A DNA stretch of 64,000 nt from Erythrobacter sp. GTDB taxonomy: Bacteria; Pseudomonadota; Alphaproteobacteria; Sphingomonadales; Sphingomonadaceae. The position numbers and the translations under genes are program-made. The stretch's first letter is position 1, and each line of letters opens with the position of its first letter. The notes below the pieces were generated by a model. It saw only the letters and a list, made by a program, of their open reading frames with translations. It made no database searches and had not been told where the DNA came from. Where the stretch lies: the NCBI GenBank assembly GCA_029937545.1, contig JAPYPR010000005.1, positions 62,001 to 126,000 of the forward strand. Direction: 5' to 3'. Below are positions 2,360 through 38,068 of this stretch, piece after piece.

Positions 2360-2394
2360 ATGGCGACTATTCGCTCCCTTTGGTCGCTGCGCCC

Positions 2395-2473: not shown

Positions 2474-2493
2474 GCGACCGTCAGGAGAAAAAC

Positions 2494-3776: not shown

Positions 3777-3802
3777 TCCCTTCGAACAGGGGAGCAAACA
3801 AG

Positions 3803-4906: not shown

Positions 4907-4910
4907 ACGC

Positions 4911-6152
4911 ATGGTCCGCAAGTTTCTCTACATCGTCTCGTCCCTAATCGCGCTGGTCATCGTCGGCGGCATCGCGCTGTCGATCTGGTCTCGTGAGGCG
5001 ACCGAGATCGCTTTCGTACCACGCGGCGATTTCGTCGAGCAGGAGCCGTTGGACCAGAACGCGTATCAGGACCCTGCAATGTGGTATTCGCGCCCCGGCC
5101 TCGGCGCGAACGATCCGGCACGCTATCAACCCGCAGTGGCCGAAACCTCCCCCGATCCGGCGGAGCGCACACCGTCGCCCGATACGCCCGCCGCCGAACA
5201 GAGCCTCGATCGCGGCGTCCCGCAGGTGGGCATCAACTCGCAGCCCGGCGAGATAGCGAACCCGCGCGAACTGCCCGACTTCGCCGTCTTCTTCGTGCCC
5301 CCGACCAGCTATACCAAGGGCGCTTTGGGCGACTGGAACGCGCCGCTGAACGATGCCGATACCGACCAGCTGGCACGCGTGTTCCTGCGCGGCCTCGCGA
5401 GCCCGTTCAATCGTGCCGACGAGGTCTGGGCGCCAAAATACCGTCAGGCAGCGGTCGGCGCTTTCCTGACCGATCGCGAAGAAGCCACACGCGCCATCGA
5501 TGCCGCCTATGCGGATGTCGAACAGGCGTTCCGCTATTTCGTCGAGAGCGTGGGATCGGACAAGCCGATCGTGCTGGCAGGGCACAGCCAAGGCGCGGCC
5601 CATGTTTTGCGCTTGCTGCGTGACGTTGTCGCTGGAACCGAGCTGGAACCACGGATCGCGGCCGTCTACGCGCCCGGCTGGCCGATTTCGCTGGCGCACG
5701 ACCTACCTGCCCTGCCCCTCCCCGCTTGCGCATCGCCCGGCCAGTCCGGCTGCATCGTCAGCTACCTCAGCTTCGCGGACGACGGCGATCCGGGCCAGCT
5801 ACTCACGCGCTATAGCCAGATGCCGGGCCTCGATGGTCAGCCGCGCGGGACCGAGGACCCGGTGCTCTGCGTCAATCCGCTGACCGGCATGGCCGGCGGC
5901 TCCGCGCCTGCCAGCGACAATCTCGGCACGCTGGTGCCGGAAGACAGCTTGGCCACGGCGGAGCTTGTCTCAGGGGCTGTCGGCGCGCGCTGCGGCGAGA
6001 ACGGCATTCTCTACATCGGCGATCCGCCCGAACTGGGCCAGGGCGTGCTCCCGGGTGGGAATTATCACGTATATGACATTCCGCTGTTCTGGAAAAATTT
6101 GCAGGAAGACGTGGTGCGGCGGGTGACGGCATGGAAGCCCGCGCAATCGTAA
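4911..6152 (+). CDS. DUF3089 alpha/beta hydrolase-like protein
   Basis: The 413-residue protein has an N-terminal membrane anchor or uncleaved signal (residues 4-27) and a Pro-rich linker. This is followed by an alpha/beta hydrolase core with the nucleophile elbow GHSQGA at about residue 223 and FAVFFVPPTSYTKG near residue 125. This arrangement matches the DUF3089 family, predicted serine hydrolases of unknown substrate. It most likely faces the periplasm, tethered by the anchor. Its 3' end overlaps ruvX by 22 bases, so the two are expressed together. The enzymatic role is inferred from the GxSxG motif only. Confidence 0.82.
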   Translation: MVRKFLYIVSSLIALVIVGGIALSIWSREATEIAFVPRGDFVEQEPLDQNAYQDPAMWYSRPGLGANDPARYQPAVAETSPDPAERTPSPDTPAAEQSLDRGVPQVGINSQPGEIANPRELPDFAVFFVPPTSYTKGALGDWNAPLNDADTDQLARVFLRGLASPFNRADEVWAPKYRQAAVGAFLTDREEATRAIDAAYADVEQAFRYFVESVGSDKPIVLAGHSQGAAHVLRLLRDVVAGTELEPRIAAVYAPGWPISLAHDLPALPLPACASPGQSGCIVSYLSFADDGDPGQLLTRYSQMPGLDGQPRGTEDPVLCVNPLTGMAGGSAPASDNLGTLVPEDSLATAELVSGAVGARCGENGILYIGDPPELGQGVLPGGNYHVYDIPLFWKNLQEDVVRRVTAWKPAQS

Positions 6153-6616
6153 CCGACAACGCGCTGGAATATGGCAACGCGCTGCCCGATGGCGGCGCCT
6201 TGCTGGGGCTCGATGTCGGTACGAATACCGTCGGCATTGCCACCTGCGACCGTGAGTGGCGCTTTGCGACGGCGGGCAAGACGCTGCAACGCGGCAAGTT
6301 CGGCAAGGACAGCGAGAGCTTGCGCGCGCTGGCGACCGAGCGCGGCATCAAGGGCGTCGTCATCGGCCTGCCGCGCAATATGGACGGCAGCGAAGGCCCG
6401 CGCGCGCAGGCAAGCCGCGCCTACGCCCGCAACGTCGCGCTGGCGCTCGGCCTGCCGGTGCTGCTGTGGGACGAGCGCTGGTCCACCGCCAGTGCCGAGG
6501 GCGCGATGATCGCGCAGGACATGAGCCGCGCCAAGCGCGCCGCACGCATCGACAGCCACGCTGCCGCGATCATCCTGCAAGGTGCGATCGACACGCTGGC
6601 TGGCGGCGGGTTCTAG
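6131..6616 (+). CDS. ruvX: Putative pre-16S rRNA nuclease / Holliday junction resolvase RuvX (YqgF)
   Basis: This 161-residue RNase H-fold protein shows LGLDVGTNTVGIATCD with the first catalytic aspartate and GVVIGLPRNMDGSEGPRAQ in the middle. LWDERWSTASAE carries the catalytic glutamate, and RIDSHAAAIILQ the last aspartate. YqgF proteins process the 5' end of 16S rRNA in E. coli and have been proposed as resolvases. The start lies inside the preceding gene, and a roughly 18-residue lead precedes the core. An alternative later start is not obvious. Confidence 0.92.
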   Translation: MEARAIVTDNALEYGNALPDGGALLGLDVGTNTVGIATCDREWRFATAGKTLQRGKFGKDSESLRALATERGIKGVVIGLPRNMDGSEGPRAQASRAYARNVALALGLPVLLWDERWSTASAEGAMIAQDMSRAKRAARIDSHAAAIILQGAIDTLAGGGF

Positions 6617-6736
6617 GCGGCGAGCGCTTTTCGCCGTAAGGCGGCCTCACCCGCGAAAAGGCGGCTGTCGCTGACCTCCGCCTCGCGCCACAGTGCCTCG
6701 CGCTTTCGGTCTCGCGATTAGCGATCACGCGAGGCA
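6613..6736 (-). pseudogene. Short coding-like fragment downstream of the decayed 6.7-7.3 kb gene
   Basis: Reading the minus strand from just after the TGA at 6737-6739, an ATG opens a few codons in one frame. The coding-looking stretch REALWREAEVSDSRLFAGE then continues in a different frame to a TAG at 6613-6615. That second frame has a TAA shortly upstream and no start of its own. The most economical reading is a small gene with one frameshift, coupled to the decayed gene before it. Its stop overlaps the convergent ruvX stop by two bases. I do not recognise the product. Confidence 0.4.
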
Positions 6737-7275
6737 TCACGCGGCCTCCTGCTGCTCGAATTGCGGATAAGCTTCTATCAATTGCGTGCAGCGCCTGCGC
6801 GGGCGTAGCCAACGCATGCTCAGGCGCTTGGGCGATGCACAGCAGTTCCGCAAATCCGGTGGCCGTATCGAGCGCGAGGCATTCGCGCAAACCCGGGGTC
6901 TGCCGTTGTCTCATCATATGCAATCAGGACCAGCGCCGCCCTGCCGCGCGTGGCGCGCTGCAGTATCGAGGTTCCGCCGTTCTTCTGATGACGGAAGGGC
7001 ATATGCGCGAGAGGCTCATCGCCCAAAGACCTGCCCATTCCTTCGATCAACGGTTCGATCAGCGCCGAAGCGCCATCGAGCGTCACGGCGGCCCGCGCAA
7101 GATAGCTGCAATCTTCAAAGTCCGCACCCGCGCCATATTCGGCCAACCCTGCCAACACATCGCCGACCGGCTTGCTGGCAAGCCAGTCTTCGCGGACCTG
7201 CTCGACTCGCAACTGCGCGCGGCGCAGCGCGGACGGATTTCCGCACAGCGCCGCAATTCTCTCGTCTATCTGCAC
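6737..7275 (-). pseudogene. Decayed cytosolic protein gene, frameshifted and internally deleted
   Basis: A GTG at 7275 starts a good reading frame (MQIDERIAALCGNPSAL) for about 120 codons to near base 6915. The coding character then jumps to the +1 frame (LRECLALDTATGFAELLCIA). It jumps again near base 6783 into QLIEAYPQFEQQEAA, ending at the TGA at 6737-6739. Restoring two bases at the last junction joins ALHA to QLIEAY smoothly. The join at about 6915 looks like a deletion of the middle of a longer gene, because a variable N-terminal domain abuts a helical, HEAT-like C-terminus. The first frame alone would encode 151 residues with a spurious tail. Product unknown. Confidence 0.6.
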
Positions 7276-7285
7276 CTCGGGGACC

Positions 7286-7441
7286 TTAGCCCGGGACCTG
7301 CCGGGTCACGTCGTAGACGTAGACCATGATCACGATCAGCCTGTCGCCGGTCGCGGGTCCGGAGGCAAGGGCGCTGCCGAACAGGCCGGTGACCTGGTCT
7401 GGCCCCGGAAGGCTGGCGATGTCGATAGAGGATAGTTTCAT
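7286..7441 (-). CDS. 51-residue protein of unknown function
   Basis: An ATG read from base 7441 downward encodes 51 residues ending at the TAA at 7286-7288. A GGAG Shine-Dalgarno (about 7451-7454) lies nine bases upstream. The sequence starts MKLSSIDIASLPG and ends with a hydrophobic stretch DRLIVIMVYVYD plus a short polar tail. It is too short for most gene callers. It sits only ten bases upstream of the GTG of the decayed gene and looks like the first gene of that operon. The good ribosome site and clean frame contrast with the broken gene behind it. Function unknown. Confidence 0.6.
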   Translation of the reverse strand: MKLSSIDIASLPGPDQVTGLFGSALASGPATGDRLIVIMVYVYDVTRQVPG

Positions 7442-7574
7442 CGATTTTCACTCCAATTTGCCGACCGTGCGACCCCATGCCTCGGCTCGGCATCCCGAAG
7501 CGTGCCAAGCGGTCCGCCGCGCTTGAAATTAAAACATTGTAAGTCGGCGGAACCCCGCGCTATCGGGCACCGCG

Positions 7575-8033
7575 ATGACCGGCGAAGAACTTAAATTCGA
7601 TCCTGCGGAGGCGACCAAGTTCTTTACCGCGCGCGGGCATTCGGGCTGGCTCGGCCTCACCTATTGCGACCATGGCGACGATTGGGTGGAGCTGGAGCTG
7701 CCCTGGCGCGAGGACCTGCTCGGCGAAGAGGGGCAACGGGTGCTTGCCTCCGGCCCGATCCTCAGCCTGATGGACATGGCCAGCGGCATGGCGATCTGGC
7801 GGACGCTGGACGAGTTCAGCGCCATCGCCACGCTCGACCTCAGGGTGGACTACGTGCGCCCGGCGCGCGAAGGGGCGAGCGTCTTCGGTCGCTCGCAATG
7901 CTATCGCCTCACTCGCAGCGCGGCTTTCGTCCGCGGTCTTGCCCATGATGGCGACGCGGGCGATCCGGTCGCGCATATCCAGGCCGTCTTCATGAAGATC
8001 GCGCCACAAGGTCCGGTGGTGCCGAATGGCTGA
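7575..8033 (+). CDS. PaaI-type hotdog thioesterase
   Basis: The 152-residue protein fits the single hotdog domain of the PaaI/YbgC group. It has a Gly/Leu-rich LGLTYCDHGDDWVELELPW strand, then the long central helix preceded by LASGPILSLMDMASGMA, where the catalytic acid of this family normally lies. RVDYVRPAREGASVFG forms the dimer-interface strands. Such enzymes hydrolyse acyl-CoA thioesters, often aryl- or hydroxyaryl-CoA. It overlaps a second hotdog gene by eight bases, so the two are probably made together and might form a heteromer. The specific substrate cannot be read from sequence. Confidence 0.85.
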   Translation: MTGEELKFDPAEATKFFTARGHSGWLGLTYCDHGDDWVELELPWREDLLGEEGQRVLASGPILSLMDMASGMAIWRTLDEFSAIATLDLRVDYVRPAREGASVFGRSQCYRLTRSAAFVRGLAHDGDAGDPVAHIQAVFMKIAPQGPVVPNG

Positions 8034-8436
8034 GCCGACCGATATGGATGCGCTGACTCCCTATGCACGCTCGCTCGGGATCCATCTGGAGCGTTGGGAA
8101 GATGATGACACCCCCGTGATGCGGGTGGAGTTCGACGAGACGGTCGAGGGCCGCCCCGGCCATTATCACGGTGGGGCGACCGGAGGTTTGCTCGAGACCG
8201 CAGGCTACGCACTACTCAGGGCCGAGCTGGAGCACCGAGATCGGTCCGCCGTACTCAAGCCGATCAACATCACGGTGCAGTATCTCGCGGCAGGCAAGAA
8301 CCAGGCAACCTATGCCAAGGCCCGCATCACCAAGTTCGGTCGCCGCAGCGCGAATATCACGGTGGAAGCGTGGCAGGACGATCCGACGCGACCGATCGCC
8401 ACGGCAGTCATGAACGTGCTGATGGCCGAAAGCTGA
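8026..8436 (+). CDS. Second PaaI-type hotdog thioesterase
   Basis: This 136-residue protein has the same hotdog layout as its upstream neighbour: GHYHGGATGGLLETAGYALL forms the central helix with the HGG turn typical of PaaI thioesterases, followed by NITVQYLAAGKNQATYAKA. The HGG motif is present here but degenerate in the first gene, so this copy is the better candidate for an active enzyme. The start at 8026 overlaps the preceding gene by eight bases. It ends four bases before the convergent penicillin-binding protein gene. Confidence 0.85.
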   Translation: MAEPTDMDALTPYARSLGIHLERWEDDDTPVMRVEFDETVEGRPGHYHGGATGGLLETAGYALLRAELEHRDRSAVLKPINITVQYLAAGKNQATYAKARITKFGRRSANITVEAWQDDPTRPIATAVMNVLMAES

Positions 8437-8439
8437 CGC

Positions 8440-10662
8440 CTAGCGCGGCGCTTGCTCGCGCAAACGTTCGTCACGCTGGCGCCTGATTTCCTCGTAACGC
8501 TCCTCGGCCTCGATCTGGCGATCCTCTGCGCGGCGGCGCGCTTCCTCGATCGCCTGGTCGTCGATCCCGATCCCGTCTTCGCCGATCCGGATATCGACCG
8601 GAATGCCGTCCACCTCGGTCGAGAACACCGCCTCGCCGTCCCGGATCCGGATGCGCGAATTGCCGTCGTCCAGCGGAATATCGCCGATATCGGGCACGTC
8701 GAGCGGCTCGACGGGGGTGCCAGGATCGCGCTGTTCGCGCGGCGAGGGTCGACCCGTCGCCTGAACGCCCAGCGCGCGGTTCATGAAGTCCCGCCAGATA
8801 CGAGCGGGCAAGCCGCCGCCCGAAATATTGCCGGCGAGCGGAGAGTTGTCGTCGTTGCCGATCCACACGCCGACCACCAGATCGCCCGCATAGCCGACGA
8901 ACAGCGCGTCGCGATTGTCCTGCGTCGTGCCGGTCTTGCCGAAGTTCGGACCGCTCAGCATGGCCGCGCGACCGGTCCCCTCATTGATCGCGGCCCGCAG
9001 CATCTGCTGCATATCGTCGCGCGTCGATGACGAAAAACTGGACGGCCCGTCCAACAGATTCTCGAAGAACCCCCGCTCTGGACGGGCAAAAGCATGGGCC
9101 TCTGCCGGATAGGCATTGCCGGCCACGGCGGCGTAGGCGGAAGTGAGCTCCAGCAGGCTCATCGTGTTGGTACCGAGCGCCAAACTGGGATCGCCCTTGG
9201 TGAGCGGCGAGGTCACGCCCAGGTCGCGCGCGAGCTGGATCACCTTCTCGCTGCCGACCTCCTCGAACAGGCGCACTGCGGCGACATTGCTCGACTGGGC
9301 AAATGCCTCTTCCAGCGTCAGGCTCTCCGAATAGCGCTCGCGCGAATTCTTGGGACGATAGCTGCCTTGGGTGAACGCGGTATTCGCGATGCGATCGTCG
9401 GGGTCCCACCCGGCCCGTAGCGCGGCGAGATAGACGAACAGCTTGAAGGTCGATCCCGGCTGGCGCTTGGCCTGCGTCGCGCGGTTGAACGGCGACTTTT
9501 CGTAGTCCTTGCCGCCGATCATCGCCACGACCTCGCCATTGGGCCGCATCGCAACGAGCGCCACCTGCGCGGACCCGAGCGGCGCGCGGCTCGTCACATC
9601 GCGCGCAATGGACTGCAAGTGGCTGTCGAGCGTGGTGGTCAGCGTCTGTCGTGCATAGCCGCCCTCGGCCTCCTTGCGCGCTTCGGGCAGCGCCCAGTCG
9701 GCGAAGTACGTGCCGGTCGGCAAGTCGCTCTTGAGCCGCACATCGAGCGCCGGGGGCGTCATTCCGCGCGCCTCGGCCTCGGTGATGTATCCCGCCGCAA
9801 CCATCGATTTCACCACGAGCCCCATGCGCTGTTCCGCGCGGTCGTAATGCCTGGTTGGGGCATAGCGCGAAGGTGCCTGGAGCAGGCCCGCCAGCATAGC
9901 CGCCTGGTTGCGCTTCAGGTTTTCCGGCTTGCGGTAGAAATAATGCAGGCTCGCTGCGCGAAGGCCATAGACGTTGTCGCCGAAATAGGCGTTGGAAAGG
10001 TATCGCTCGAGGATCTCGTCCTTGGTCAGCCAGCTTTCGAGCCAGAACGCAATCAGCGCCTCGCGCGCCTTGCGGGTCAGCGTGCGTTCGGGCGTCAGGA
10101 AAGTAAACTTTGCAAGCTGCTGGGTGATCGTGCTGCCGCCGCCGGTGCCGGTGAAGATCGCGCGTCCGATCCCGCGCGGATCGACGCCCCAGTGGTCGTA
10201 GAAGCGGCGGTCCTCGATCGCGAGGAAGGCCTCCACCACATGCGGCGGCAGGGTGTCCAGGTCCACCGGCTCGTCGACAATGGCCCCGTTGCGCGCAATC
10301 GGCGTTCCGTCGGCCGCCAGCAGCGTAATCTGTGGCGGGGCGATCGGTTCGAGCGACTTGGACAGCGGCGCGGTGATCGCCAGCCAGCCGACCAGCAGGA
10401 TAAACAGGGCGAGCATGCCCAGCACGATGCGCCCTGCCCACCAGCGCTTGCGGCGGCCCAGCCAATAGTCCCTCTGCCACCAGCGCAGGCGGCGGCGCTC
10501 TTCGGCTTCGAGCGCATGATCGAGACTGGAGAGCCGGTCGTCCCAATCGTCATAGAGCGACTCGTCGTAATCGAACGCGTCATGCGTCGCATAATAGCCG
10601 CTGTGCCCCGACGGCTCGGGCTCGGCCTGCGGCTTGCGTCTGAAGGAATCGAATACGCACAT
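8440..10662 (-). CDS. Penicillin-binding protein 1A-type transglycosylase/transpeptidase
   Basis: This 740-residue class A PBP polymerises and crosslinks peptidoglycan. It has a long acidic, Tyr-rich and then Arg/Trp-rich cytoplasmic N-terminus (about 75 residues) and one membrane helix (about 77-97). A GT51 domain carries the catalytic glutamate at about residue 150 (EDRRFYDHWG) and GSTITQQLAKF. The transpeptidase domain has the serine at about residue 404 (GSTFK), an SSN motif and KTGTT near residue 575. The last 60 residues form a charged Glu/Arg coiled coil. It follows cobS in the same direction with 49 bases between them, which contain a perfect inverted repeat. Confidence 0.92.
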   Translation of the reverse strand: MCVFDSFRRKPQAEPEPSGHSGYYATHDAFDYDESLYDDWDDRLSSLDHALEAEERRRLRWWQRDYWLGRRKRWWAGRIVLGMLALFILLVGWLAITAPLSKSLEPIAPPQITLLAADGTPIARNGAIVDEPVDLDTLPPHVVEAFLAIEDRRFYDHWGVDPRGIGRAIFTGTGGGSTITQQLAKFTFLTPERTLTRKAREALIAFWLESWLTKDEILERYLSNAYFGDNVYGLRAASLHYFYRKPENLKRNQAAMLAGLLQAPSRYAPTRHYDRAEQRMGLVVKSMVAAGYITEAEARGMTPPALDVRLKSDLPTGTYFADWALPEARKEAEGGYARQTLTTTLDSHLQSIARDVTSRAPLGSAQVALVAMRPNGEVVAMIGGKDYEKSPFNRATQAKRQPGSTFKLFVYLAALRAGWDPDDRIANTAFTQGSYRPKNSRERYSESLTLEEAFAQSSNVAAVRLFEEVGSEKVIQLARDLGVTSPLTKGDPSLALGTNTMSLLELTSAYAAVAGNAYPAEAHAFARPERGFFENLLDGPSSFSSSTRDDMQQMLRAAINEGTGRAAMLSGPNFGKTGTTQDNRDALFVGYAGDLVVGVWIGNDDNSPLAGNISGGGLPARIWRDFMNRALGVQATGRPSPREQRDPGTPVEPLDVPDIGDIPLDDGNSRIRIRDGEAVFSTEVDGIPVDIRIGEDGIGIDDQAIEEARRRAEDRQIEAEERYEEIRRQRDERLREQAPR

Positions 10663-27578: not shown

Positions 27579-28484
27579 GTGAGCGACACCAAGACCCCCG
27601 AGCAACTCGTCGCAGGCCTCGTCCGCCTGCTTACCGTCACCCGCGATGGCGAGGACGCGTTCAGCGCCCCGCAGCAGCCCGGCGGCGTCGGCCGCGTGTT
27701 CGGCGGCCAGGTCATCGCCCAGGCGCTGCAGGCCGCGCAGGCCACCGCGCCCGAGGGGCTCGAGGCCCATTCGCTCCACGCCTACTTCCTGCGCGGCGGC
27801 AAGGAGGGCGTCGACATCGCCTATGCCACCGCGCGCGACTTCGACGGGCGCAGCTTCGCCAACCGCCGCGTGGTCGCGACGCAGGAGGGCAAGCCGATCC
27901 TCAACCTCACCGCCAGCTTCCAGCGGCCGGAGGACGGCCTTTCCCACGACGACACGACCATGCCGGACGTGCTGCCGCCCGAAGAGCTCAAGCCCGATAT
28001 GGAGCAGCGCCGCGCCATGGTGGAGCGGATGGGCGACCGCATGAGCGAGGACCAGCGCAAGTTCGTCCTCCGCCCCCGCCCGATCGACATGCGGACCAAT
28101 GACAAGCTGCACTGGATGAACAGCGAACCGCGCCCGCCGCGCGCGCACAGCTGGTTCCGCACGGTCGCGCCCCTGCCCGACGATGCGGCGCTGCACCGCG
28201 CGGTGATCGCCTATGCCAGCGACTACACGCTGCTCGGCACCAGCGCCCTGCCCCATGGCCTCAGCTGGATGCGCGGCGAGCTGGTCGGTGCCAGCCTCGA
28301 TCACGCGATCTGGTTCCACCGTCCGGCACGCGCCGACGAATGGCTCCTCTACGCAACCGACGCCCCGTGGAGCGGATCGGGCCGAGGCTACAACCGCGGC
28401 CGCATCTTCAACCGCGCCGGCGAGCTGATCGCCAGCGTGGCGCAGGAGGGGATGATGCGGAAGCGGGTCCAGCGAGAGGGCTAA
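27579..28484 (+). CDS. tesB: Acyl-CoA thioesterase II
   Basis: TesB hydrolyses medium- and long-chain acyl-CoA. The 301-residue double-hotdog protein has the N-terminal RVFGGQVIAQALQAAQAT helix and HSLHAYFLRGGK. The second hotdog carries YASDYTLLGTSALPHG, with the catalytic aspartate, and SLDHAIWFHRPARADEWLLY. The expected catalytic triad positions look intact. The GTG at 27579 is used because it gives the family start MSDTKTPEQLVAGL. It lies 21 bases after the cupin-like gene and may be cotranscribed with it. Confidence 0.93.
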   Translation: MSDTKTPEQLVAGLVRLLTVTRDGEDAFSAPQQPGGVGRVFGGQVIAQALQAAQATAPEGLEAHSLHAYFLRGGKEGVDIAYATARDFDGRSFANRRVVATQEGKPILNLTASFQRPEDGLSHDDTTMPDVLPPEELKPDMEQRRAMVERMGDRMSEDQRKFVLRPRPIDMRTNDKLHWMNSEPRPPRAHSWFRTVAPLPDDAALHRAVIAYASDYTLLGTSALPHGLSWMRGELVGASLDHAIWFHRPARADEWLLYATDAPWSGSGRGYNRGRIFNRAGELIASVAQEGMMRKRVQREG

Positions 28485-28809
28485 AACCTTTGTAGGACAA
28501 ATGTTGGGCTGCCCGAGGGCGAGACCCATGACATGGACCGCATGTTACACAGTTCAGGGCGGAAAAACCTCGGGGTTCGAAAAAGCGGGCCGACGATGGG
28601 AAAGAACGGCGCGGGAATAGCACTGGGCAGGGATGTAGGAAAACCGAGCAGGTCCGCCACCACGTGCAGGTACGAAAAATTAACCCCATTCACGCCTGAA
28701 ATCTTAACCATCGATCCGCGAAATCCCATCTTTCTGCGGTTTTTGCGTAGTCCTTCGTTTACCTTTGCATCGTAGAGCGGCGAGCCTGATCAACTATCCG
28801 GGCCCGTCC
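28485..28809. other. Intergenic region upstream of the RTX gene
   Basis: This gap of about 325 bases contains no convincing gene, hairpin terminator or RNA. It becomes AT-richer toward the RTX start and includes a TTAACCAT at 28704-28711, which resembles a CtrA half-site but has no partner at the correct spacing. The RTX promoter presumably lies here. Confidence 0.5.
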
Positions 28810-31692
28810 ATGTCGAAAATCGTAGCTTCGCGTCTTACCTATCTTGAACAAACGACTTCGGCCTACCGAACTCCGTCGGTCGAGCCCGACGCGCCCGCCA
28901 CATGGGGTGGCTACGACTTGGTCGCCGCCGCCGCATTGCTCGGCAAGCAGTCGCCCAGCCTTCAGGTCCCGGCGCTTCCTTCCTTGGAAATCTACGAGAT
29001 CCAGGGCGCAGGGCACGTGTCCGCTCATGTCGGTGCCACGGTTTCGACCCAGGGTATCATCACCGCCATCGACCGCGGCGGCTTCTGGCTTCAATCGGCC
29101 GTAGGCGATGGTGACAGCGCAACCTCGGACGCAATCTTCGTTCGTCATTCTGTCGCCGGTGTAGCTGTCGGAGACGCGATCACGGTCACCGGAGTAGTGG
29201 GCGAGCAAGCGCGCGGACCGGGCCTGACCATCACGGAGATTTCCGCCCAGACGGTCAGTGTGCACAGCCACGGCAATGCACTCCCCGAGGCAATCCTGAT
29301 CGGTGTCAATGGCATTCTCCCGCCGACCTCGGTTATCGAAGACGACTCGTTCGGTTCCTACGATCCGGAGACCGATGGCCTGGATTTCTGGGAATCGCTC
29401 GAAGGCATGCGCGTGACGCTGGAAACGCCGCAGGCGATTTCCAACACCAACAGCTATGGCGAGACCTACCTCGTCGCTTCGCATGGCGCCGACGCGACCG
29501 GCATGACCATTCGCGGCGGGCTCGCCATCGGCGAAGGCGACTGGAACCCCGAGCAGATCCAGCTCGACGACCGGCTCTACGACCAGCCTTACCTGACTGT
29601 GGGAGATCAGCTCGCGAGCGTCACCGGCATCCTCGGCTATGGCTACAATCACTACGAGCTGGTCGCGACCGAGCGCGCCGTCGTTACGCGTGATGCGGTA
29701 CTCACTCGCGAAACCGCCGATTTCAGTGGTGATGCGAACCACTTGACCGTCGCAACCTACGATCTGTCGAACCTCGACCCCTACGATGCACGCTTCGCTT
29801 CGGTCGCCAACGACATTGTAAACCGGTTGCAGTCTCCCGATGTCATTGCCGTCCAGCGCGTGCAGGACGCCGACGGTCGGGGCACTGGAACCGATCTGTC
29901 GGGCCATGCGACCGCCGACCGCCTGATCGAAGCGATCTTCCAGCAAACCGGCCTACGCTACGTTTATGTCGAGATCGCACCCGACGAAATCAATTCGACC
30001 GCCGGGCAGGAAAACGGCAATGTCCGCAACGGTTATCTCTATCGCCCCGACCGCGTGGAACTGGTCGAAGGGAGCCTGCAAGTCATCGACCACGCAATCT
30101 TCGATGGCACCCGCAGCCCGCTGGTGGCGACCTGGAGCTTCAATGGCGAGGAAGTGACGACGATCAACGTCCATTTCACCACGCGATATGGCAGCGACCC
30201 GCTGTGGGGAGCGGTGCAGGACCCGTATCATGCGGGCACGATCATGCGGACCAACCAGATTGCTGCGGTGGACGAATATATCGAAGCGATGCTCGCCGCC
30301 GACCCGGACGCCAATGTCATGCTCACCGGTAGTTTCGGCGGCTTTACCTGGGAAGCAGCGCAGCGACAGCTGACGGATGACGGGCTGCTGACCAATCTCA
30401 CGAACTGGCTCGACGCGGGCGACCGTTACACCTCTATCGTCGATGGCAATACGCAGCAATTGCACCACACGCTGCTGAGTGGTGGACTGTTCTCACGCGC
30501 CGAGTACGATATCGTCCATCTCAACTCGGAGTTCGCTGGTCTCGGCCGCAATTCGGCCAACGATCCGCAAGTTACGCGGTTCTATATTCCGAATGCGCCG
30601 GACAACCTGCGCCTCGCCGGCAACAGTGTGGTAGAGAACGCAGCCGCTGGCACGGTGGTCGGGCGGCTAGTGGCCGACGACACGCTTGGCGATCGGCTGA
30701 CTTACGAACTGCTCGACGACGCCGGAGGCCTGTTCGGGATTAACGCCGCCACTGGCGTCATCACGACCACCGCTCCGCTGAATTTCGAAGAACTGGCGCA
30801 GTATAACCTTGAGGGCCGCGTGACGGACACGGCAGGTCTGAGCACCTCGGGAAGTTTCACTGTGTCGGTACTCGACGCCAACGAAACGCCGGTCGCGGCT
30901 GACGATAGCCTCTCGATCGTCGAGGGTGGAGTCGCGAACGATCTTGCCGCACTTCTGCTCGGCAATGATGCGGATCCGGACGGCGGTGCCTTGCGTATCC
31001 TGTCGGTCGATACGGCCGGAACGACCGGCAGGGTGGAATTCGATCCCGAGACCCAAAGCCTGCGCTATTTTGCGCGTGGCGGGGCGATCGACGAGCTGGC
31101 TCAGGATGAAAGCCTGCTCGACACTTTCACCTATACCGTGGTGGACGCCAACGGCGCGACCCATACCGCACGCGTGACGATCACCGTCGATGGCGCGGTG
31201 GATGGCGTGACCCTGTATGGCGGGAACGGCAACGACGTGCTGCACGGCAGCGAAGGCGACGATTTTCTCTACGGCGGCAATGGCACCGACACGCTGATCG
31301 GCTACGGCGGCGATGATTGGCTGGAGGGTGGCCGTGGCAACGACATCCTGACCGGCGGCGAGGGTTCGGATATCTTCGTAGTCGAGAAGGCCGGAGGCCA
31401 CGACTTCGTCACGGATTTCGATATTCATGAAGACATGATCCACGACCGTGACGATCTGGGCCTGAAAGCCTGGTGGCTCGAGGATTACGACAACGACGGC
31501 ACGCTCGATCTTACGCTGATGTTCAACAAGGGCGCGAAGATCACCCTCGCCAATGTCTGGGACATGGTTTTTCAGGGACAGGATGGCGCGGATGTGGATG
31601 CGCTGGTGGACCAGATCGTCTTTTACCACACGACCGATGCTGGCGCGGCCGGCTTCGTCAATTTGGGTGCGGTCAACGAATTTATCGTCTGA
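28810..31692 (+). CDS. Secreted RTX protein with ExeM/NucH-like nuclease fold and altered active site
   Basis: The 960-residue protein lacks a Sec signal and ends with glycine-rich Ca2+-binding repeats (GNGNDVLHGSEGDDFLYGG to GSDIFVV, about residues 805-860), the mark of type I secretion. The order of domains follows ExeM/NucH extracellular nucleases: an OB-like N-terminal domain (STQGIITAIDRGGFWLQ), a central endonuclease/exonuclease/phosphatase (EEP) domain (about 310-600), a cadherin-like domain and a further tandem Ig-like domain, then RTX. Residues that normally bind metal or catalyse are changed: QE becomes Q-R350, GDxN becomes G-S508-F-G510, LDH becomes L-H552-H, and SDHDP is missing. 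It therefore probably no longer cleaves DNA. The ATG at 28810 was chosen over a TTG 15 codons upstream. Confidence 0.8.
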   Translation: MSKIVASRLTYLEQTTSAYRTPSVEPDAPATWGGYDLVAAAALLGKQSPSLQVPALPSLEIYEIQGAGHVSAHVGATVSTQGIITAIDRGGFWLQSAVGDGDSATSDAIFVRHSVAGVAVGDAITVTGVVGEQARGPGLTITEISAQTVSVHSHGNALPEAILIGVNGILPPTSVIEDDSFGSYDPETDGLDFWESLEGMRVTLETPQAISNTNSYGETYLVASHGADATGMTIRGGLAIGEGDWNPEQIQLDDRLYDQPYLTVGDQLASVTGILGYGYNHYELVATERAVVTRDAVLTRETADFSGDANHLTVATYDLSNLDPYDARFASVANDIVNRLQSPDVIAVQRVQDADGRGTGTDLSGHATADRLIEAIFQQTGLRYVYVEIAPDEINSTAGQENGNVRNGYLYRPDRVELVEGSLQVIDHAIFDGTRSPLVATWSFNGEEVTTINVHFTTRYGSDPLWGAVQDPYHAGTIMRTNQIAAVDEYIEAMLAADPDANVMLTGSFGGFTWEAAQRQLTDDGLLTNLTNWLDAGDRYTSIVDGNTQQLHHTLLSGGLFSRAEYDIVHLNSEFAGLGRNSANDPQVTRFYIPNAPDNLRLAGNSVVENAAAGTVVGRLVADDTLGDRLTYELLDDAGGLFGINAATGVITTTAPLNFEELAQYNLEGRVTDTAGLSTSGSFTVSVLDANETPVAADDSLSIVEGGVANDLAALLLGNDADPDGGALRILSVDTAGTTGRVEFDPETQSLRYFARGGAIDELAQDESLLDTFTYTVVDANGATHTARVTITVDGAVDGVTLYGGNGNDVLHGSEGDDFLYGGNGTDTLIGYGGDDWLEGGRGNDILTGGEGSDIFVVEKAGGHDFVTDFDIHEDMIHDRDDLGLKAWWLEDYDNDGTLDLTLMFNKGAKITLANVWDMVFQGQDGADVDALVDQIVFYHTTDAGAAGFVNLGAVNEFIV

Positions 31693-31737: not shown

Positions 31738-31851
31738 AACCTGGAAGCCGGCCGGGGTGCCTACCTCGTCGGAATCGAAGCATGCGCCGACGCCGCCGGT
31801 GAACACCGTGCTGTCGCTGATGCAGTAGCCGCAGTTGCAGGCTACGCGACT
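31738..31851 (-). pseudogene. Relic of a YadA-type adhesin membrane anchor
   Basis: Read on the minus strand this stretch encodes YCISDSTVFTGGVGACFDSD and AGFQVS. These match the C-terminal anchor of the intact adhesin 4.3 kb away (YRISDSTVFTGGVGVGFDSG, AGFQAS). At the DNA level, bases from 31741 align with 36083 onward at about 90% for some 80-85 bases and then diverge. No head or stalk sequence is present. It is a fragment left by duplication, recombination or loss of a second adhesin gene. Confidence 0.8.
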
Positions 31852-31980: not shown

Positions 31981-33003
31981 TCAGTCGCCCAGCGCGGTCT
32001 CGATCGCGCCGAGAGGAACGAGCTTGAAGTTCTGCGCCCCCGTGGCGTTGATCCCGTCTTGCGCGACGAAGAGCCCGCCGGGGAAATTCGGCCCGAAATC
32101 TCCGCGCCTGGCCTCGATGCCGTCGGTCTCTTCGGTGCTGCCGAACCGGCCTTCCCCGATGCGGAACCGACCGGCAGGCAGCACGTCTGGCAGGCTATAG
32201 CGCATGTAAGTGTTGTCGCCCTGGCTCGAGGCATAGAGCCAGCCACCGGCCGCGCCTTCGGGCACCAACGCCAAACCCTCGAGGTCCGCTACGAGATTGC
32301 GATTGTCGACCCGCGCGACCAGTTCGCCCTCCGTACGACCGGAAGCGAAGCGCCAAATGCCGCCAGCCTCCTCGCCGATAAAGAGGGTGCCGTCGCGCGC
32401 ATCGATAGCGCAGCCTTCGGGCTGGCTTGGAACATTCATGGTGCGCAGCTGCCGGATGGTTGGCTGCGCACCCAGTGTGATGGTCCATTCGCCGATATTG
32501 CCTTCCTTCGGAACCGTGTAAACGACGAGTCCGCCATCGGAAGCGCGATACCCGCAGATGCCGTAGGCTTCACCCGGACCGGCGGCGAGCGTTGCGAGAG
32601 GCACCAGTTCCGCGGCGTCCGTATCCAGCCGGAACAGGGCGATCTTGCCATTCGCTAGGTCCGAGCGATCGCTGGCAAAGACGATGATCCCTTCGTTTCC
32701 CATATCGACCAGATCGACATTGTTCAGACCCGGCTGCGCGTGGAAGCCACGGATCGCGCCGTCCAGGCCGTAAACATAGAGTCCGCCTTTTTTGTCAGTA
32801 GCGACGATCAGGCTATCCGCTGGCGAAGCTGCGTTGCGCCAGATCGCCGGATCGTCGGCCGCATCTTCATTGGCCGTGCCAACGGGTTCGGTTTCGGCGA
32901 CCGCGTAGACCGGCGTAGCGGGATTGCCCATCACGGGAATCGTGGCGCAGGCAGCAGCGACCGCGAGGGTGGAGAGGGCGAAAAAAGTGAAACCGCTACG
33001 CAT
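31981..33003 (-). CDS. Beta-propeller phytase, probable lipoprotein
   Basis: This 340-residue enzyme of the beta-propeller phytase family hydrolyses phytate in the presence of Ca2+. Signature segments are ANEDAADDPAIWRNAASP, TDKKGGLYVYGLDG, PGLNNVDLVD, NLVADLEGLALVPE, SSQGDNTYMRY and TDGIEARRGDFGP, covering the Ca-binding and phosphate sites. The N-terminus has a hydrophobic signal ending in AVAAAC, so it may be lipid-anchored. Its start shares bases with the stop of the TonB-dependent receptor upstream (TGATG), indicating co-expression for phosphate or phytate scavenging. Confidence 0.92.
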   Translation of the reverse strand: MRSGFTFFALSTLAVAAACATIPVMGNPATPVYAVAETEPVGTANEDAADDPAIWRNAASPADSLIVATDKKGGLYVYGLDGAIRGFHAQPGLNNVDLVDMGNEGIIVFASDRSDLANGKIALFRLDTDAAELVPLATLAAGPGEAYGICGYRASDGGLVVYTVPKEGNIGEWTITLGAQPTIRQLRTMNVPSQPEGCAIDARDGTLFIGEEAGGIWRFASGRTEGELVARVDNRNLVADLEGLALVPEGAAGGWLYASSQGDNTYMRYSLPDVLPAGRFRIGEGRFGSTEETDGIEARRGDFGPNFPGGLFVAQDGINATGAQNFKLVPLGAIETALGD

Positions 33004-35828
33004 CAGAACGTCATCCTCACGCCTGCCTTCATGGTCCAGTTATATTCCTCGTACTGGTAGATATTCCGCCGTCCGCCGAGCGTGTTGTAAGCGAAATACT
33101 TCCCATCGGTGATGTTCACCCATTCATAGAACAGCTGGAGCCCGTCGGCGACGCGATATTTGGCCGACAGGTCGAGCTGGAAGTGATCGTCGACATAGCG
33201 GTCGAGCGCAGGCTCGCTGCCGAGCTCATCGAGATATTTGTCGCGATAGGTGCCCGACAGGCGGACATCGACCAGACCCTTGTCGTAGCCGACCGAAACA
33301 TTGCCGGTATGCTTGCTGGTCGAGGGCAGCGGAATGTCGCGCGGGCCGTCGGCCGCCACCAGCGTCACCGCACCGTCCGCATCGGTATAGGTGTAATTCG
33401 CCTGCACCAGAAACCCGTCGAGCGCGCCGGTGAAGGCCTGCGCGAAGCCCAGCTCGAAACCGAAGACCTCGGCCTTGTCGCCGTTGAACCAGATTGTCGC
33501 TTCATCGAAGGGTACGCCGCGGAAGCTTCCGTTGAACGGCGCATCGTCGGCCTCGAATACGGTCTCGACGAAGAAATCCTCGATGTTCTTGTAAAAAGCG
33601 GAGGCATAAATCGCGCCATTGTCGGTCATATAATATTCGACTGCCGCATCCACGTTCCAGGCTTCTGCGGGAAGCAGACCGGGATTGCCGAACTCGCCCT
33701 CGCGCTCCCCGTCATCGGCTTCTTCCACGGCCACCCGAGGTGCCTGCTGGAAGGGGCCGGGCCGCACGATAGAGCGGTAGCCCGCGGCGCGCAGAATCAG
33801 GTCCGGCGCGGCTTCGAAGCGCAGATTGAGGCTGGGCAGCCAGTGATCGTAATCCTTGTCGATCGAAACCGGGCTGACCAGCACCACGTCGTCGGTGGCG
33901 ATCGTGCCATCGGGCAGCGTTCCGTCTTCCTCGACCAGCAGCACATCGTTGCCACTGAGCGTGTTGGACGTGTTCTCGTACCGCACGCCGCCGATCACGG
34001 TCAGCGTGGAGCTGTCCCAACGACCGAGTAGATAGCCTGCAAGGATGTCTTCCTCCACCACGAAATCCTCGACTGCACTGTCGAAGGCGCTGTCGATCTC
34101 CTGCAATTCGAAACTGTCGAAGTTGCGCAGGAAAAAGTCGGTCGCCGCGGTGAAACCGGGAAGCGGACCGATGTTGGCGATCCGATAGGTCGGGTCTTCG
34201 CCCAGCGCGTCCGCCAGCGCGTAGTCGTCAAGCTCGTAGAACTCGACGGTGCCGTTGAAGCTCTTTTCCCGCCAGCGGCCCTTGGCTCCGGCCTGCACCG
34301 TGAACTCGCCATTGTCGCCGACGAAGCGGCGCCCAAGGTCGAATTTGGCCGAGTATTCTTCGTCCTGCGAATCCGACAGCACGACGTATTCGACGTCGTT
34401 GAGCTCGTAAGCCGAGGGGTTGAAGAAGTCGCCAGGGTTGGCGAGGACGGAGTAAAGCGGCACTCGCTCGTCAGCCAAATCGAAGCCCAGTCGCAGCCCT
34501 TCCGCTTCGTATTCACGCTCGAACTGGGTCGGATCGATGCTGCCGTTTTCGCGCTCGCTCGATTTCGCCCAGCTGCCGGAGTATTCGGCGAACCAATCGC
34601 CCCAATCGCTTTCGCCGCCCAAGACCACGCTGCGGATCTTCTGGCGTTCAAAGCGATCCTTGATGTCGCGCTCGACCACGATGGCCTCATCGTCGTCATA
34701 GACCAGCTGGTCGCTCGTGCCCGATGCGCCTGCGTCACCGAGGTCGAAGGTCAGGCGACGGCGGAATTCCTGATCGTCGAACTGGCTGTAGATGCCGCGG
34801 ACATACAGCTCCGTGCTGTCGCCTGCACGAAAGTCGAGGCCCAGCGTAGCGCTGATTCGCTCGCGCTCCACATCGTAGTCGCGATACTGGAATTCCTCGG
34901 CATAGACGAGACCGTCGTCGAGTTCCCAATCGTCCGCTTCGATATTGTCGGTTTCGAACGTGCGCTTGTAATAGGACAGGCCGCCCGACACACCGAAATT
35001 GTCGCCAAGGCGCGCAGAGAAATCCACGCTGCCCTTGGGGCTCACTTCGTCGGCAAGCTCGTTGTAGCTGCCTTCCAGCTTGACGGTCAGCAGGTCCCGC
35101 TTGCGGTCGAAAGCACTGGTTGTCTCGATCTCGACCGATGCGCCGATCGTATCGGCATCCATGTCGGGAGTGAGCGACTTTTTCACCTCGATCGATTCGA
35201 TGATGTCGGACGACACCACGTCGAGCGCGACGGCACGAATGTCGTTTTCGGGCGAAGGCAGCCGCACGCCGTTGAGCGAGGTGGCGTTCAGGCTGGGGCT
35301 GAGGCCGCGGATGGAGACGAAGCGGCCCTCGCCCTGATCATTCAGCACGTTGATGCCGGGCAGGCGGCGAAGGCTCTCGGCCACGTTCTGGTCGGGAAAC
35401 TGGCCGATGGCATCGCGAGTCAGCACGTCGGAAACCGTGTCGTTTTGGCGCTTGCGCGAAAGGGCGCTGGAAAGGTTGGCGGCCTGGCCGATGACCAGGA
35501 TCTCGTTATCTCCGAAGCCGCTCAGCGCCACATCGGCTCGCACGGTCCCCGTCGCGGGCACCGTCACGCTCTGCGTCCGGGTCTCCGCGCCGACATAGCT
35601 GACTTCCAGCGTATAGCTTCCGGCAGGTACCTCGTTGAAGCGGAACGATCCATCGCGCTCGGTCGTGGTAACGCGGTCGAGCTCGACGATGCGCACCTGG
35701 GCCGAACGAAGCGCGATCGTCTGGCTCGCATCGCCGACCGAGCCGACCACTTCTCCGGCCTGCGCCAGCGTGGGGATGGTAGCAACGGCGAACGCCGCGC
35801 CGGCGAGAAGCGATTTCCTGATATTCAT
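33003..35828 (-). CDS. TonB-dependent receptor paired with phytase
   Basis: This 941-residue outer-membrane receptor starts with a signal peptide (about 24 residues, cleaved near LAQA). A carboxypeptidase-regulatory-like domain follows (ALRSAQVRIVELDRVTTTE, about residues 38-105). The plug domain contains DVLTRDAIGQFPDQNVAESLRRLPGI and VSIRGLSPSLN, and a large beta-barrel ends in the aromatic VRMTF. No FecA-type signalling domain is present, so it is unlikely to talk directly to the ECF factor nearby. The ATG at 35828 follows GGAGG by about seven bases. Coupling to phytase suggests uptake of inositol phosphates or metal-phytate complexes. Confidence 0.93.
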   Translation of the reverse strand: MNIRKSLLAGAAFAVATIPTLAQAGEVVGSVGDASQTIALRSAQVRIVELDRVTTTERDGSFRFNEVPAGSYTLEVSYVGAETRTQSVTVPATGTVRADVALSGFGDNEILVIGQAANLSSALSRKRQNDTVSDVLTRDAIGQFPDQNVAESLRRLPGINVLNDQGEGRFVSIRGLSPSLNATSLNGVRLPSPENDIRAVALDVVSSDIIESIEVKKSLTPDMDADTIGASVEIETTSAFDRKRDLLTVKLEGSYNELADEVSPKGSVDFSARLGDNFGVSGGLSYYKRTFETDNIEADDWELDDGLVYAEEFQYRDYDVERERISATLGLDFRAGDSTELYVRGIYSQFDDQEFRRRLTFDLGDAGASGTSDQLVYDDDEAIVVERDIKDRFERQKIRSVVLGGESDWGDWFAEYSGSWAKSSERENGSIDPTQFEREYEAEGLRLGFDLADERVPLYSVLANPGDFFNPSAYELNDVEYVVLSDSQDEEYSAKFDLGRRFVGDNGEFTVQAGAKGRWREKSFNGTVEFYELDDYALADALGEDPTYRIANIGPLPGFTAATDFFLRNFDSFELQEIDSAFDSAVEDFVVEEDILAGYLLGRWDSSTLTVIGGVRYENTSNTLSGNDVLLVEEDGTLPDGTIATDDVVLVSPVSIDKDYDHWLPSLNLRFEAAPDLILRAAGYRSIVRPGPFQQAPRVAVEEADDGEREGEFGNPGLLPAEAWNVDAAVEYYMTDNGAIYASAFYKNIEDFFVETVFEADDAPFNGSFRGVPFDEATIWFNGDKAEVFGFELGFAQAFTGALDGFLVQANYTYTDADGAVTLVAADGPRDIPLPSTSKHTGNVSVGYDKGLVDVRLSGTYRDKYLDELGSEPALDRYVDDHFQLDLSAKYRVADGLQLFYEWVNITDGKYFAYNTLGGRRNIYQYEEYNWTMKAGVRMTF

Positions 35829-35993
35829 TGAAGCCCTCCAAGGTATTTGAAGGGCGCTTAGGAGTCTTGTTTGACTGCATGATTGCCGCCCGGAGGCAAA
35901 CACGTTGCAGTCACGCCAAACTGGTCACGCGAATGCAACACCGTCCAAGGCCATTCGGACCACGAGCGCTTCTTCCCCATTCATTTGCTGACG

Positions 35994-36070: not shown

Positions 36071-38068
36071 TTACCAGGAAGCCTGGAAGCCGGCCCGGGC
36101 GCCTACCTCGCCGGAGTCGAAGCCTACGCCGACGCCGCCGGTGAACACCGTGCTGTCGCTGATGCGGTAACCAAAGCTGGCCGAACCCGCGACGCGCTCG
36201 TTGAAGTAGCCGAAGCCCCCGGCCATGCCGAAGGTCTTGCCCGGCATGATGATCGGCGATTCCAGCGCCAGCGCCAGCGCGACGCCTTCATTGGCGCGCC
36301 GGGCCTGAGTGTTATTCTCGTCCGCTAGGTCGAACAGGATGCTCGTCTGGTTCTGGAGGTCCGAGATCGCTGCCGAATTGGCCGCTATGGCGCCGGTGTT
36401 GTTGGCGACCAGCATCGAGTTGGTCATGATCGCTGCCGAGTTGGCCTGCACGTCGCTGAAGCTGGCAAGATTGCTCGTGCCGTTGGAGCTGCTGACGCCG
36501 AGCGTGCCGTTGGCATCCGCCGTGACGAAGGCGATCGGGCCGACCTGCGAACCGCTGCTCGCGCCGAGCGAGGCGACGACCACCTGGCCGTCGTTCGTGG
36601 CGATCGCACCGTTACCGATGGCGACCGAGTTCGCACCCGAGGCTACTGCCTCGTTGCCCATCGCGATCGCACCGTCGCCGCTGGCTGCGGCTGCTTCACC
36701 GATCGCGACCGAGCGGACGCCCGATGCATTGGCGAGATGGCCCAGCGCGGTGGCGCGTTCGGCCCCTGCGCTCGACTGCCAGCCATAGGCGGTCGCGCCC
36801 GGACCAGTGGCGACGCTCTCTCCGCCGACCGCGGTGGTCGAGTTGCCCATCGCCATGGCAGTGTCGCCGATGGCGAGTGCGTCGACGCCGTTGGCGACGG
36901 CTTCGTTACCGATGGCGGTGCTGAAGTCGGTCTGCGCATCGGCATTCTCGCCGACCGCTACCGAGCGGACACCCTGCGCCGTGGCGAGGTGGCCGACAGC
37001 CGTGGCACGCTCTGCGCCGGCAACCGACTGCCAGCCGAAAGCGCTCGCGCCCGGACCGGTGGCAACGCTCTCGCCGCCGATGGCCGAGGTGGACGGACCG
37101 CTCGCGCTGGCGGTAAAGCCGACTGCGAGGGCATCTTCGCCGTCTGCCGTGGCCAAGCCGCCGACAGCAGTGGCGCCGAGGCCGGTTGCCTGGGCGTCTG
37201 CACCGAGCGAGGCGGAGTAGACGCCGTCCGCAACTGCGCCGTCGCCGTCGCCGTCGCCATCGCTACCGATCGAAATCGCACCGACCTGGCGTGCTTCTGC
37301 GTCGCCGCCGATCGCGATGCCGGCATCGTCGGTCGCCAGAGCGCCGAATGCGCCGCCGTCGGTGTTGCCGCCGATGGCGATGCCGCCGCGACCCTGGGCC
37401 GCTGCCGCTTCACCCACGGCCACCGAAGCGAAGCCGTCGGAAATGGCGAGATGGCCGAGCGCGGTCGAGCGCTCTGCATTGGCGCGAGCTTGCCAGCCAT
37501 AGGCCGAGGCACCCGGACCGGTCGCGACACTCTCGCCGCCGACTGCGGTGGTGGAATTACCCATCGCCATCGCGCTGTCGCCCACTGCCAGTGCATCGAC
37601 GCCATTAGCTACGGATTCGTTACCGATGGCGGTGCTGAAGTCGGTCTGCGCATCGGCATTCTCGCCGACTGCGGTCGAACGCTCGCCCTGAGCGGTGGCA
37701 AGGTGGCCGACAGCCGTGGCGCGCTCGCCGGTCGCTTCAGAGCGCCAACCGATGGCGCTGGCCCCCGGACCTTCGGCGAAAGCTTCGCCGCCGATCGCCG
37801 TGGTTGACGGGCCGCGAGCCGTGGCGGGCGCGGTACCCTCGTCGTCGCTGCCGACGGCGACGGCATCGGTGCCGTCCGCGATGGCACCGGTGCCGACGGC
37901 AACGCCGCCGTCGCCGGTCGTGGTCGCATCGGTGCCGCACTCGGTCGAGTTAGTGTTCGCGTCGTTGCATTCGGGCGTCTCGTCGGCCTGTGCGGACGTT
38001 GCCATTGCGAACATCGCAGTGCCGGCGAGCAGCGCGGCTGCCAGGTGGGTGTTGGTTGTCTTGATCAT
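36071..38068 (-). CDS. YadA-type trimeric autotransporter adhesin
   Basis: The 665-residue protein has a signal peptide (about 28 residues). A long head of 14-residue YadA-like repeats (pattern AVGxxAxAxG/SxAIG) fills about residues 50-520. A short helical stalk follows (NSAAIMTNSMLVANN, AAISDLQNQTSILFD), then the C-terminal membrane anchor (YFNERVAGSASFGYRISDS to AGFQASW). Such proteins form surface trimers that bind host or abiotic surfaces. About 143 residues of the head are duplicated 238 residues apart. AAGGAAG lies upstream of the ATG at 38068. It has its own terminator. Confidence 0.93.
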   Translation of the reverse strand: MIKTTNTHLAAALLAGTAMFAMATSAQADETPECNDANTNSTECGTDATTTGDGGVAVGTGAIADGTDAVAVGSDDEGTAPATARGPSTTAIGGEAFAEGPGASAIGWRSEATGERATAVGHLATAQGERSTAVGENADAQTDFSTAIGNESVANGVDALAVGDSAMAMGNSTTAVGGESVATGPGASAYGWQARANAERSTALGHLAISDGFASVAVGEAAAAQGRGGIAIGGNTDGGAFGALATDDAGIAIGGDAEARQVGAISIGSDGDGDGDGAVADGVYSASLGADAQATGLGATAVGGLATADGEDALAVGFTASASGPSTSAIGGESVATGPGASAFGWQSVAGAERATAVGHLATAQGVRSVAVGENADAQTDFSTAIGNEAVANGVDALAIGDTAMAMGNSTTAVGGESVATGPGATAYGWQSSAGAERATALGHLANASGVRSVAIGEAAAASGDGAIAMGNEAVASGANSVAIGNGAIATNDGQVVVASLGASSGSQVGPIAFVTADANGTLGVSSSNGTSNLASFSDVQANSAAIMTNSMLVANNTGAIAANSAAISDLQNQTSILFDLADENNTQARRANEGVALALALESPIIMPGKTFGMAGGFGYFNERVAGSASFGYRISDSTVFTGGVGVGFDSGEVGARAGFQASW
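36660..37814. repeat. Long direct repeat inside the adhesin head
   Basis: Bases about 36660-37100 and 37374-37814 are direct repeats offset by 714 bases (238 codons). Long stretches are identical, for example CGTTACCGATGGCGGTGCTG at 36904 and again at 37618. Each copy encodes a GPSTxAIGG to GEAAAAxG block. The spacing is a multiple of three, so recombination between copies would shorten or lengthen the head without breaking the frame. Confidence 0.8.

Follow-up and report, generated by a model that had tools for sequence, protein, structure and literature searches.

Does a gene that resembles those for secreted nucleases still encode a nuclease when nearly all of the catalytic residues of its product have changed? 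This question is raised by a gene in a stretch of 64,000 nucleotides from Erythrobacter sp. (assembly GCA_029937545.1, contig JAPYPR010000005.1, positions 62,001 to 126,000), the whole of which is referred to here as the window. The gene (28810-31692, forward strand) consists of 960 codons without a stop, and in its product an OB-like region is followed by an EEP (DNase I-fold) domain, in agreement with the initial annotation, which had described an ExeM/NucH architecture in an open 960-codon frame. The NCBIfam model for this family (ExeM_NucH_DNase, NF033681) matches residues 80-563 with 110 bits (E 1.2e-31), which is below its curated cut-off of 300, and the same holds for the relatives L046 (128 bits) and L078 (160 bits; L numbers denote loci and G numbers genomes). 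The solved relative 9sf8/9sf9 aligns to residues 60-588 (E 3e-61). No EEP model is listed in a Pfam scan of the 960-residue protein; the EEP fold is recovered by a fold search in which the matching rows span the domain, and the predicted structure of the protein, a check that had been proposed earlier, shows a good fold. Towards the C-terminus RTX nonapeptide repeats are found (PF00353, E 6.5e-14), and no Pfam match to the lamin-tail domain (LTD) is seen in the window protein even at an E limit of 10. The nearest named relative is from Qipengyuania sp. XHP0211, with 97% identity, and on this basis the window probably belongs to a Qipengyuania.

Loss of the catalytic residues

The eight core sites of the EEP domain (viz. 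N318, E350, H455, D508, N510, D552, D583 and H584, in the numbering of the window protein) were counted on an alignment of 107 rows, consisting of the window and 106 loci. All eight residues are canonical in 100 of these rows (96 distinct sequences), and the seven remaining rows are the window and six of its relatives. In the window protein only His455 is kept, the other seven residues being lost (N318D, E350R, D508S, N510G, D552H, D583A and H584N). Of these changes, Arg350, Ser508, Gly510 and His552 had been noted in the initial annotation and are all correct in comparison with 9sf8/9sf9 and the genome relatives. The SDH box was likewise rightly recorded as missing, with the SDH(D) of the relatives reading S582-A583-N584(-D585) in the window, while two further substitutions, D318 at the Asn of an A-S/T-Y-N motif and A583 at the Asp of SDH, had not been listed. 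Canonical residues at shifted positions, which would speak against a loss, were looked for in the aligned motifs of the window, 9sf8 and the genome relatives, and no such substitutes were seen.

By profile alignment N318 and E350 correspond to two residues of DNase I which we take to be Asn7 and Glu39; the remaining DNase I equivalences are by motif, and on this basis His455 is presumably H134. Positions of Xds and ExeM were matched to the window through common motifs, without direct alignment, and E532, D711, N713, D787 and H837 of Xds thereby correspond to R350, S508, G510, H552 and N584. According to passages of a report on Xds from Vibrio cholerae (PMC6746945), E532, D711, N713 and H837 are predicted residues of the metal cleft, and when D787 or H837 is altered by point mutation the protein is still made but its activity is abolished or mostly lost. 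For ExeM, passages of another report (PMC6085458) give E521 and D822 as predicted metal sites and H642, N699 and H823 as predicted phosphate sites. Among the 46 EEP columns that are near-invariant (at least 95%) across the 100 intact relatives, seven of the nine core columns are altered in the window, versus three of the 37 others (Fisher p 7e-5, a descriptive value, as several of the sites had been flagged before the test). Because seven of the eight core residues are lost, and Xds mutants at two equivalent residues are inactive or nearly so, the window protein is predicted with high confidence to be catalytically dead and not to cut.

Relatives and origin of the degenerate clade

The relatives come from one scan of genome contigs (the best 80 of 289) and from searches of genus and family genomes, and as they were gathered by likeness to the window, their counts give no measure of residue loss among more distant ExeM-type proteins. 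Excluded from the 107 rows are L001-L011 (all from the genome of the window, and either this gene or RTX-only matches), L012 (the window), L123-L127 (duplicates of L042-L046), L133 (contained in L098), L032 (with a stop), L034, L035 and L038-L041 (fragments), and L036 and L037 (remote, site intact). In a tree built without the active-site columns (quick search, no bootstrap) the seven degenerate members form one clade, with a support of 100 in the Shimodaira-Hasegawa-like approximate likelihood ratio test. This clade is nested within intact Sphingomonadales proteins, of which L078 and L065 are nearest, and it sits on a long stem (0.41 changes per column).

At the eight core sites, in order, the residues are D R H S G H A N in the window, L122, L042, L043 and L044, D R H S G D D G in L045 and D R H N N D N H in L046. 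N318D and E350R are present in all seven members, and D508 is altered in all of them (to S or N). The other four residues (N510, D552, D583 and H584) have been lost unevenly, with L046 keeping N510, D552 and H584, and L045 keeping D552 and D583. Because these four are missing in differing combinations among the seven members, the losses look stepwise, rather than the result of a single coordinated event. Hence, of the coordinated loss that had been proposed for this protein, the loss of metal and catalytic residues stands, but its coordination probably does not.

In the genus sample 13 of 60 genomes match, of which seven carry a member of the degenerate clade and seven an intact copy, G310 having both. 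No second match was found in six of the seven genomes with the clade (G310 being the exception), and for most members a role as regulator of an active paralogue is rejected on this ground. Matches in the family sample are seen in 27 of 298 genomes; the catalytic motifs were read in 26 of these (that in G118 is a fragment), and among the 26 the degenerate form is present only in the window's own genome. This genome (3.04 Mb, 105 contigs, 99.99% complete) contains no further match to the ExeM model and none to Endonuclease_NS or Endonuclease_1, and it encodes four other EEP proteins. Of 72,556 plasmid records 26 match, all with less than 60% identity, and no match was confirmed in viral contigs. 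Outside the clade, the sole core change in the sequences read is in G252 (L032), where Glu replaces the Asp of SDH in a gene that has a TAG stop. In G036 (L035/L040) a related nuclease gene has a frame change, which could be a sequencing error, and its catalytic motifs are kept.

Conservation and selection

The ratio of nonsynonymous to synonymous substitution rates (dN/dS; pairwise, Nei-Gojobori), a comparison also suggested in the initial annotation, was obtained against both close and intact relatives. For the EEP domain it is 0.027-0.073 when the window is compared with the four relatives closest to it, similar to flanking housekeeping genes, and over the OB and EEP parts it ranges from 0.03 to 0.09. 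No part of the protein has a lower ratio than the EEP domain in the comparisons with L122, L042 and L043 (0.027-0.042; OB 0.066-0.093), and in that with L044 only the cadherin domain does. The window keeps 34 of the 37 non-core near-invariant EEP columns and 40 of 42 such columns in the OB region, including DFWESLEGM (192-200), and the frames of all seven clade members are open and stop-free. Nine residues (L221, D318, R350, A398, I430, T477, I478, N482 and I484) are fixed in all seven members and are unseen in 24 near intact rows, and eight of these nine lie within the EEP domain. Residues 472-485 form the longest stretch that is identical in all seven, and a consensus built from 20 near intact relatives has other residues at half of its 14 positions; a run as long was obtained within the EEP domain in 182 of 5000 shuffles, which is modest support. 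This segment suggests a new job for that part of the protein, beyond mere tolerance of change.

Because 34 of 37 columns are kept, dN/dS versus close relatives is low, the model folds well and a new conserved segment is present, it is well supported that the gene is not decaying but encodes a secreted-type pseudoenzyme under purifying selection. Of the secreted pseudoenzyme initially postulated, it is this part, a pseudoenzyme of secreted type under selection, that is borne out by the dN/dS values, conserved columns, fold model and tree. In L043 (9600-10700), dS versus the window is raised in the cadherin, Big_9 and RTX part (0.46-0.84, versus 0.27-0.34 in OB/EEP), which suggests recombination.

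Export and genomic neighbourhood

No N-terminal signal peptide is seen by eye in the window protein. Its genome has adjacent genes for TolC-like, LssB and HlyD proteins on contig C99, a different contig from that of the pseudonuclease gene; LssB (726.8 bits, cut-off 693.1) and HlyD (331.3, cut-off 208.65) score above their cut-offs, whereas the TolC-like protein (104.9, cut-off 225.15) is below. Export by a type I secretion system is the route that we infer, and binding of Ca2+ by the RTX repeats is predicted from the Pfam match only.

The features of the gene and its surroundings are listed in Table 1. According to the initial annotation the gene lies beside an adhesin. In the window the YadA-like adhesin is 4.4 kb away, with the phytase and TonB-dependent receptor genes intervening, but in L042, L043 and L044 the 3' end of the adhesin gene comes directly after the pseudonuclease gene; thus the link is real in the sister species and interrupted in the window. 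Because the phytase and receptor are missing beside the gene in L042-L045, the segment 31712-35994, which holds both, was probably inserted. A 98-bp direct repeat (89%) is present at 31740-31837, just inside the extra segment, and at 36082-36179, in the adhesin gene, and it duplicates part of the 3' end of that gene. The adhesin itself varies strongly among close relatives, with 66-86% identity over the aligned parts and only partial alignment to L043.

A link to phosphate scavenging through the phytase and receptor is not supported, as L042-L045 lack the pair at this place. Among the best 80 loci (flanks up to 8 kb) the pair occurs near an intact nuclease gene in one, L098 of Erythrobacter litoralis SNB-035 (2026-9722), where it is 70-73% identical and upstream of the nuclease gene, a paralogue of L045 on the same contig.

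Table 1. Coordinates, within the window, of the pseudonuclease gene, its domains and altered sites, and the neighbouring genes.
Feature	Position	Strand	Basis or remark
TesB-like acyl-CoA thioesterase	27579..28484	+	upstream neighbour, conserved in L042-L045
Upstream intergenic stretch	28482..28809	+	presumed promoter site; partly conserved in L042-L044
Pseudonuclease gene	28810..31692	+	960 aa; ATG position same in L042-L044
OB-type region (ExeM N-terminal, YhcR-like), residues 60-305	28987..29724	+	NCBIfam match and conserved columns
EEP / DNase I-fold domain, residues 306-596, predicted catalytically degenerate	29725..30597	+	alignment, fold search, structure model
Codon 318, Asp for canonical Asn (DNase I N7), in 7/7 clade members	29761..29763	+	profile alignment and 107-row alignment
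Codon 350, Arg in place of the Glu that binds metal (DNase I E39; by motif Xds E532), in 7/7 members	29857..29859	+	profile alignment and 107-row alignment
Codon 455, His kept	30172..30174	+	alignment
Residues 472-485, PYHAGTIMRTNQIA, clade-specific segment	30223..30264	+	identical in 7/7 members; alignment
Codons 508-510 (metal / phosphate positions), canonical D-x-N replaced by S-F-G	30331..30339	+	alignment
Codon 552, His for catalytic Asp (Xds D787 by motif)	30463..30465	+	alignment
Codons 583-584, SDH-box Asp-His replaced by Ala-Asn (by motif Xds H837)	30556..30561	+	alignment
Cadherin domain, residues 606-688	30625..30873	+	Pfam
Big_9 Ig-like domain, residues 691-792	30880..31185	+	Pfam
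RTX Ca2+-binding nonapeptide repeats, about residues 801-877; C-terminal tail then to 960	31210..31440	+	Pfam
Phytase	31981-33003	-	next gene downstream in window
TonB-dependent receptor	33003-35903	-	beyond phytase
YadA-like trimeric autotransporter adhesin	36071-38068	-	directly downstream of pseudonuclease in L042-L044

Possible roles of the protein

The explanation that we prefer, with a probability of about one in two, is that a Ca2+-loaded RTX exoprotein has turned into a pseudonuclease, and that its likeliest ligand outside the cell is nucleic acid or a comparable polyanion. The ancestor would have been an OB+EEP protein of Sphingomonadales whose nuclease site was intact. Replacement of Glu350 by Arg and of Asn318 by Asp may then have destroyed the metal site at an early point in the history of the clade. 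Arg350 and Asp318 could form a putative salt bridge at the former Mg2+ position, and the cleft may then hold a phosphate backbone metal-free and uncut. The other catalytic residues would later have drifted by lineage, with the fold, the OB region and segment 472-485, putatively at the surface, remaining under selection. Once exported as a Ca2+-loaded RTX protein, presumably by the type I system, its cadherin, Ig and RTX modules might tie the bound nucleic acid or polyanion to the cell surface or matrix. That the cleft still takes such a ligand, with Arg350 replacing the metal, is held with less confidence than the absence of cutting. Because the OB region is kept at nearly all of its near-invariant columns, binding of DNA is plausible, and nucleic-acid binding appears to be the likeliest role. 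The proposed role in holding DNA has precedent in Staphylococcus aureus, in which biofilms are strengthened by proteins that bind extracellular DNA (passages of PMC6593408). A bolder form of this explanation, which is speculative, would be a 'dead DNase' matrix protein, in which the charge-swapped Arg/Asp pair replaces Mg2+ and which binds and shields extracellular DNA, metal-free and uncut. If this is true, these marine bacteria would have switched from using extracellular DNA as food to using it as building material, with no second, intact copy found in six of the seven genomes, and the partly degraded L046 and L045 would still display the order of the steps.

Several observations weigh against binding of nucleic acid or a polyanion. 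The net charge of the EEP domain is -22 in the window, versus -20 to -37 in seven intact rows; because Lys+Arg are only slightly more numerous (17 versus 9-15) and Asp+Glu are in the same range, there is no clear charge shift toward polyanion binding. In more distant comparisons the EEP domain shows no special constraint, with dN/dS of 0.261 between the window and L046, the most distant member of the clade, and 0.239 for L045-L046 (dS being large versus L045 and L046), compared with 0.205-0.245 for intact pairs, and its dN slightly exceeds that of the OB region (0.283 versus 0.267 against L046; 0.395 versus 0.342 against L078). Further, metal ions help active EEP enzymes to hold DNA, and the metal sites are gone in the window protein. 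Conservation also gives no pointer to which ligand is bound.

In a tentative alternative, the dead EEP domain binds a protein partner, a glycan or a surface via segment 472-485, the protein thus being an adhesin or matrix link. The concentration of clade-fixed substitutions in this domain, five of them at 430, 477, 478, 482 and 484, the identity of segment 472-485 across the clade and its divergence from the intact consensus, and the adhesin adjoining the gene in L042-L044 would all fit such a role, but the OB region and the 34 of 37 non-core EEP columns that are kept are not obviously needed for a quite different ligand, and the shuffle support for the run is modest. In an unlikely reading, the EEP domain serves just as a folded spacer or as a scaffold for export, and the function resides in one of the other parts (OB, cadherin, Ig or RTX). 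In favour of this, the three modules cadherin, Big_9 and RTX are intact, and constraint on the EEP domain does not exceed that on OB in the comparisons with L046 and L078; however, a spacer would be expected among the freest parts, and versus the closest relatives the EEP domain is the most constrained or, in the case of L044, second to the cadherin domain. Even less probable is a site rebuilt for new chemistry or another metal, e.g. around His455, which is kept, and His552, which is new in five of the seven members. These two positions are close together in DNase I-fold enzymes, but His552 is absent from L045 and L046 and so is not a property of the clade. The intact fold and OB region might be taken to indicate that the protein is still a nuclease through unusual residues; this is very improbable with seven of the eight core residues lost, and a single substitution at one or the other of two positions examined in Xds sufficed to remove all or most activity (PMC6746945). 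Least probable of all is that the gene is on its way to decay. The catalytic residues are lost, as decay might entail, but the seven frames are free of stops, dN/dS over the OB and EEP parts versus the four closest relatives is low, and the broken related genes (the frame change in G036 and the stop in G252) show the opposite pattern, keeping the catalytic motifs apart from the one Asp-to-Glu change in G252.

Comparison with known systems

ExeM (Shewanella oneidensis), NucH and Xds (Vibrio cholerae) have the OB-like region followed by EEP in the same order as the window protein (residues 80-563). The window protein differs from them in scoring below the curated cut-off (110 of 300 bits, the intact L078 reaching 160), in the loss of the catalytic residues and in the lack of an LTD match. 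ExeM has a signal sequence and a C-terminal anchor, instead of which the window protein has an RTX C-terminus, and ExeM without its LTD retains some activity (both from passages of PMC6085458). The solved protein 9sf8/9sf9, described as 'Endonuclease/exonuclease/phosphatase domain-containing protein', aligns over residues 60-588 but, unlike the window protein, has the canonical residues (9sf8); neither entry is named in the open-licence PubMed Central papers searched. L078 (Novosphingobium kunmingense) and L047 (Sphingomonas paucimobilis) are 56% and 53% identical to the window protein over OB+EEP and, in contrast to it, keep all eight core residues. L078 has the same OB+EEP+cadherin+Big_9+RTX order, and upstream of it Calx-beta domains and a sub-cut-off LTD match, neither of which is found in the window.

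Pseudonucleases of the Ssd1/Dis3 type and CPSF-100 are intracellular, RNA-directed and of non-EEP folds, whereas that of the window is RTX-borne, bacterial and of the EEP fold. In fungal Ssd1 of the Dis3 type and in CPSF-100 an inactive nuclease fold is kept for binding or regulation (abstracts of PMC8097288 and PMC8934651; passages of PMC10211241). Among the top-ranked matches in open-licence PubMed Central, no EEP/RTX pseudonuclease of this kind and no nuclease-derived binder of extracellular DNA was found. Secreted nucleases of this type are usually read as DNA scavengers or biofilm cutters, and annotation by likeness would name the present gene a nuclease, although it seems to be a non-cutting version maintained by selection. 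With the partly degraded members of the clade and the intact-site relatives at about 55% identity, the proposed passage from a nuclease to a protein that holds extracellular DNA is directly testable.
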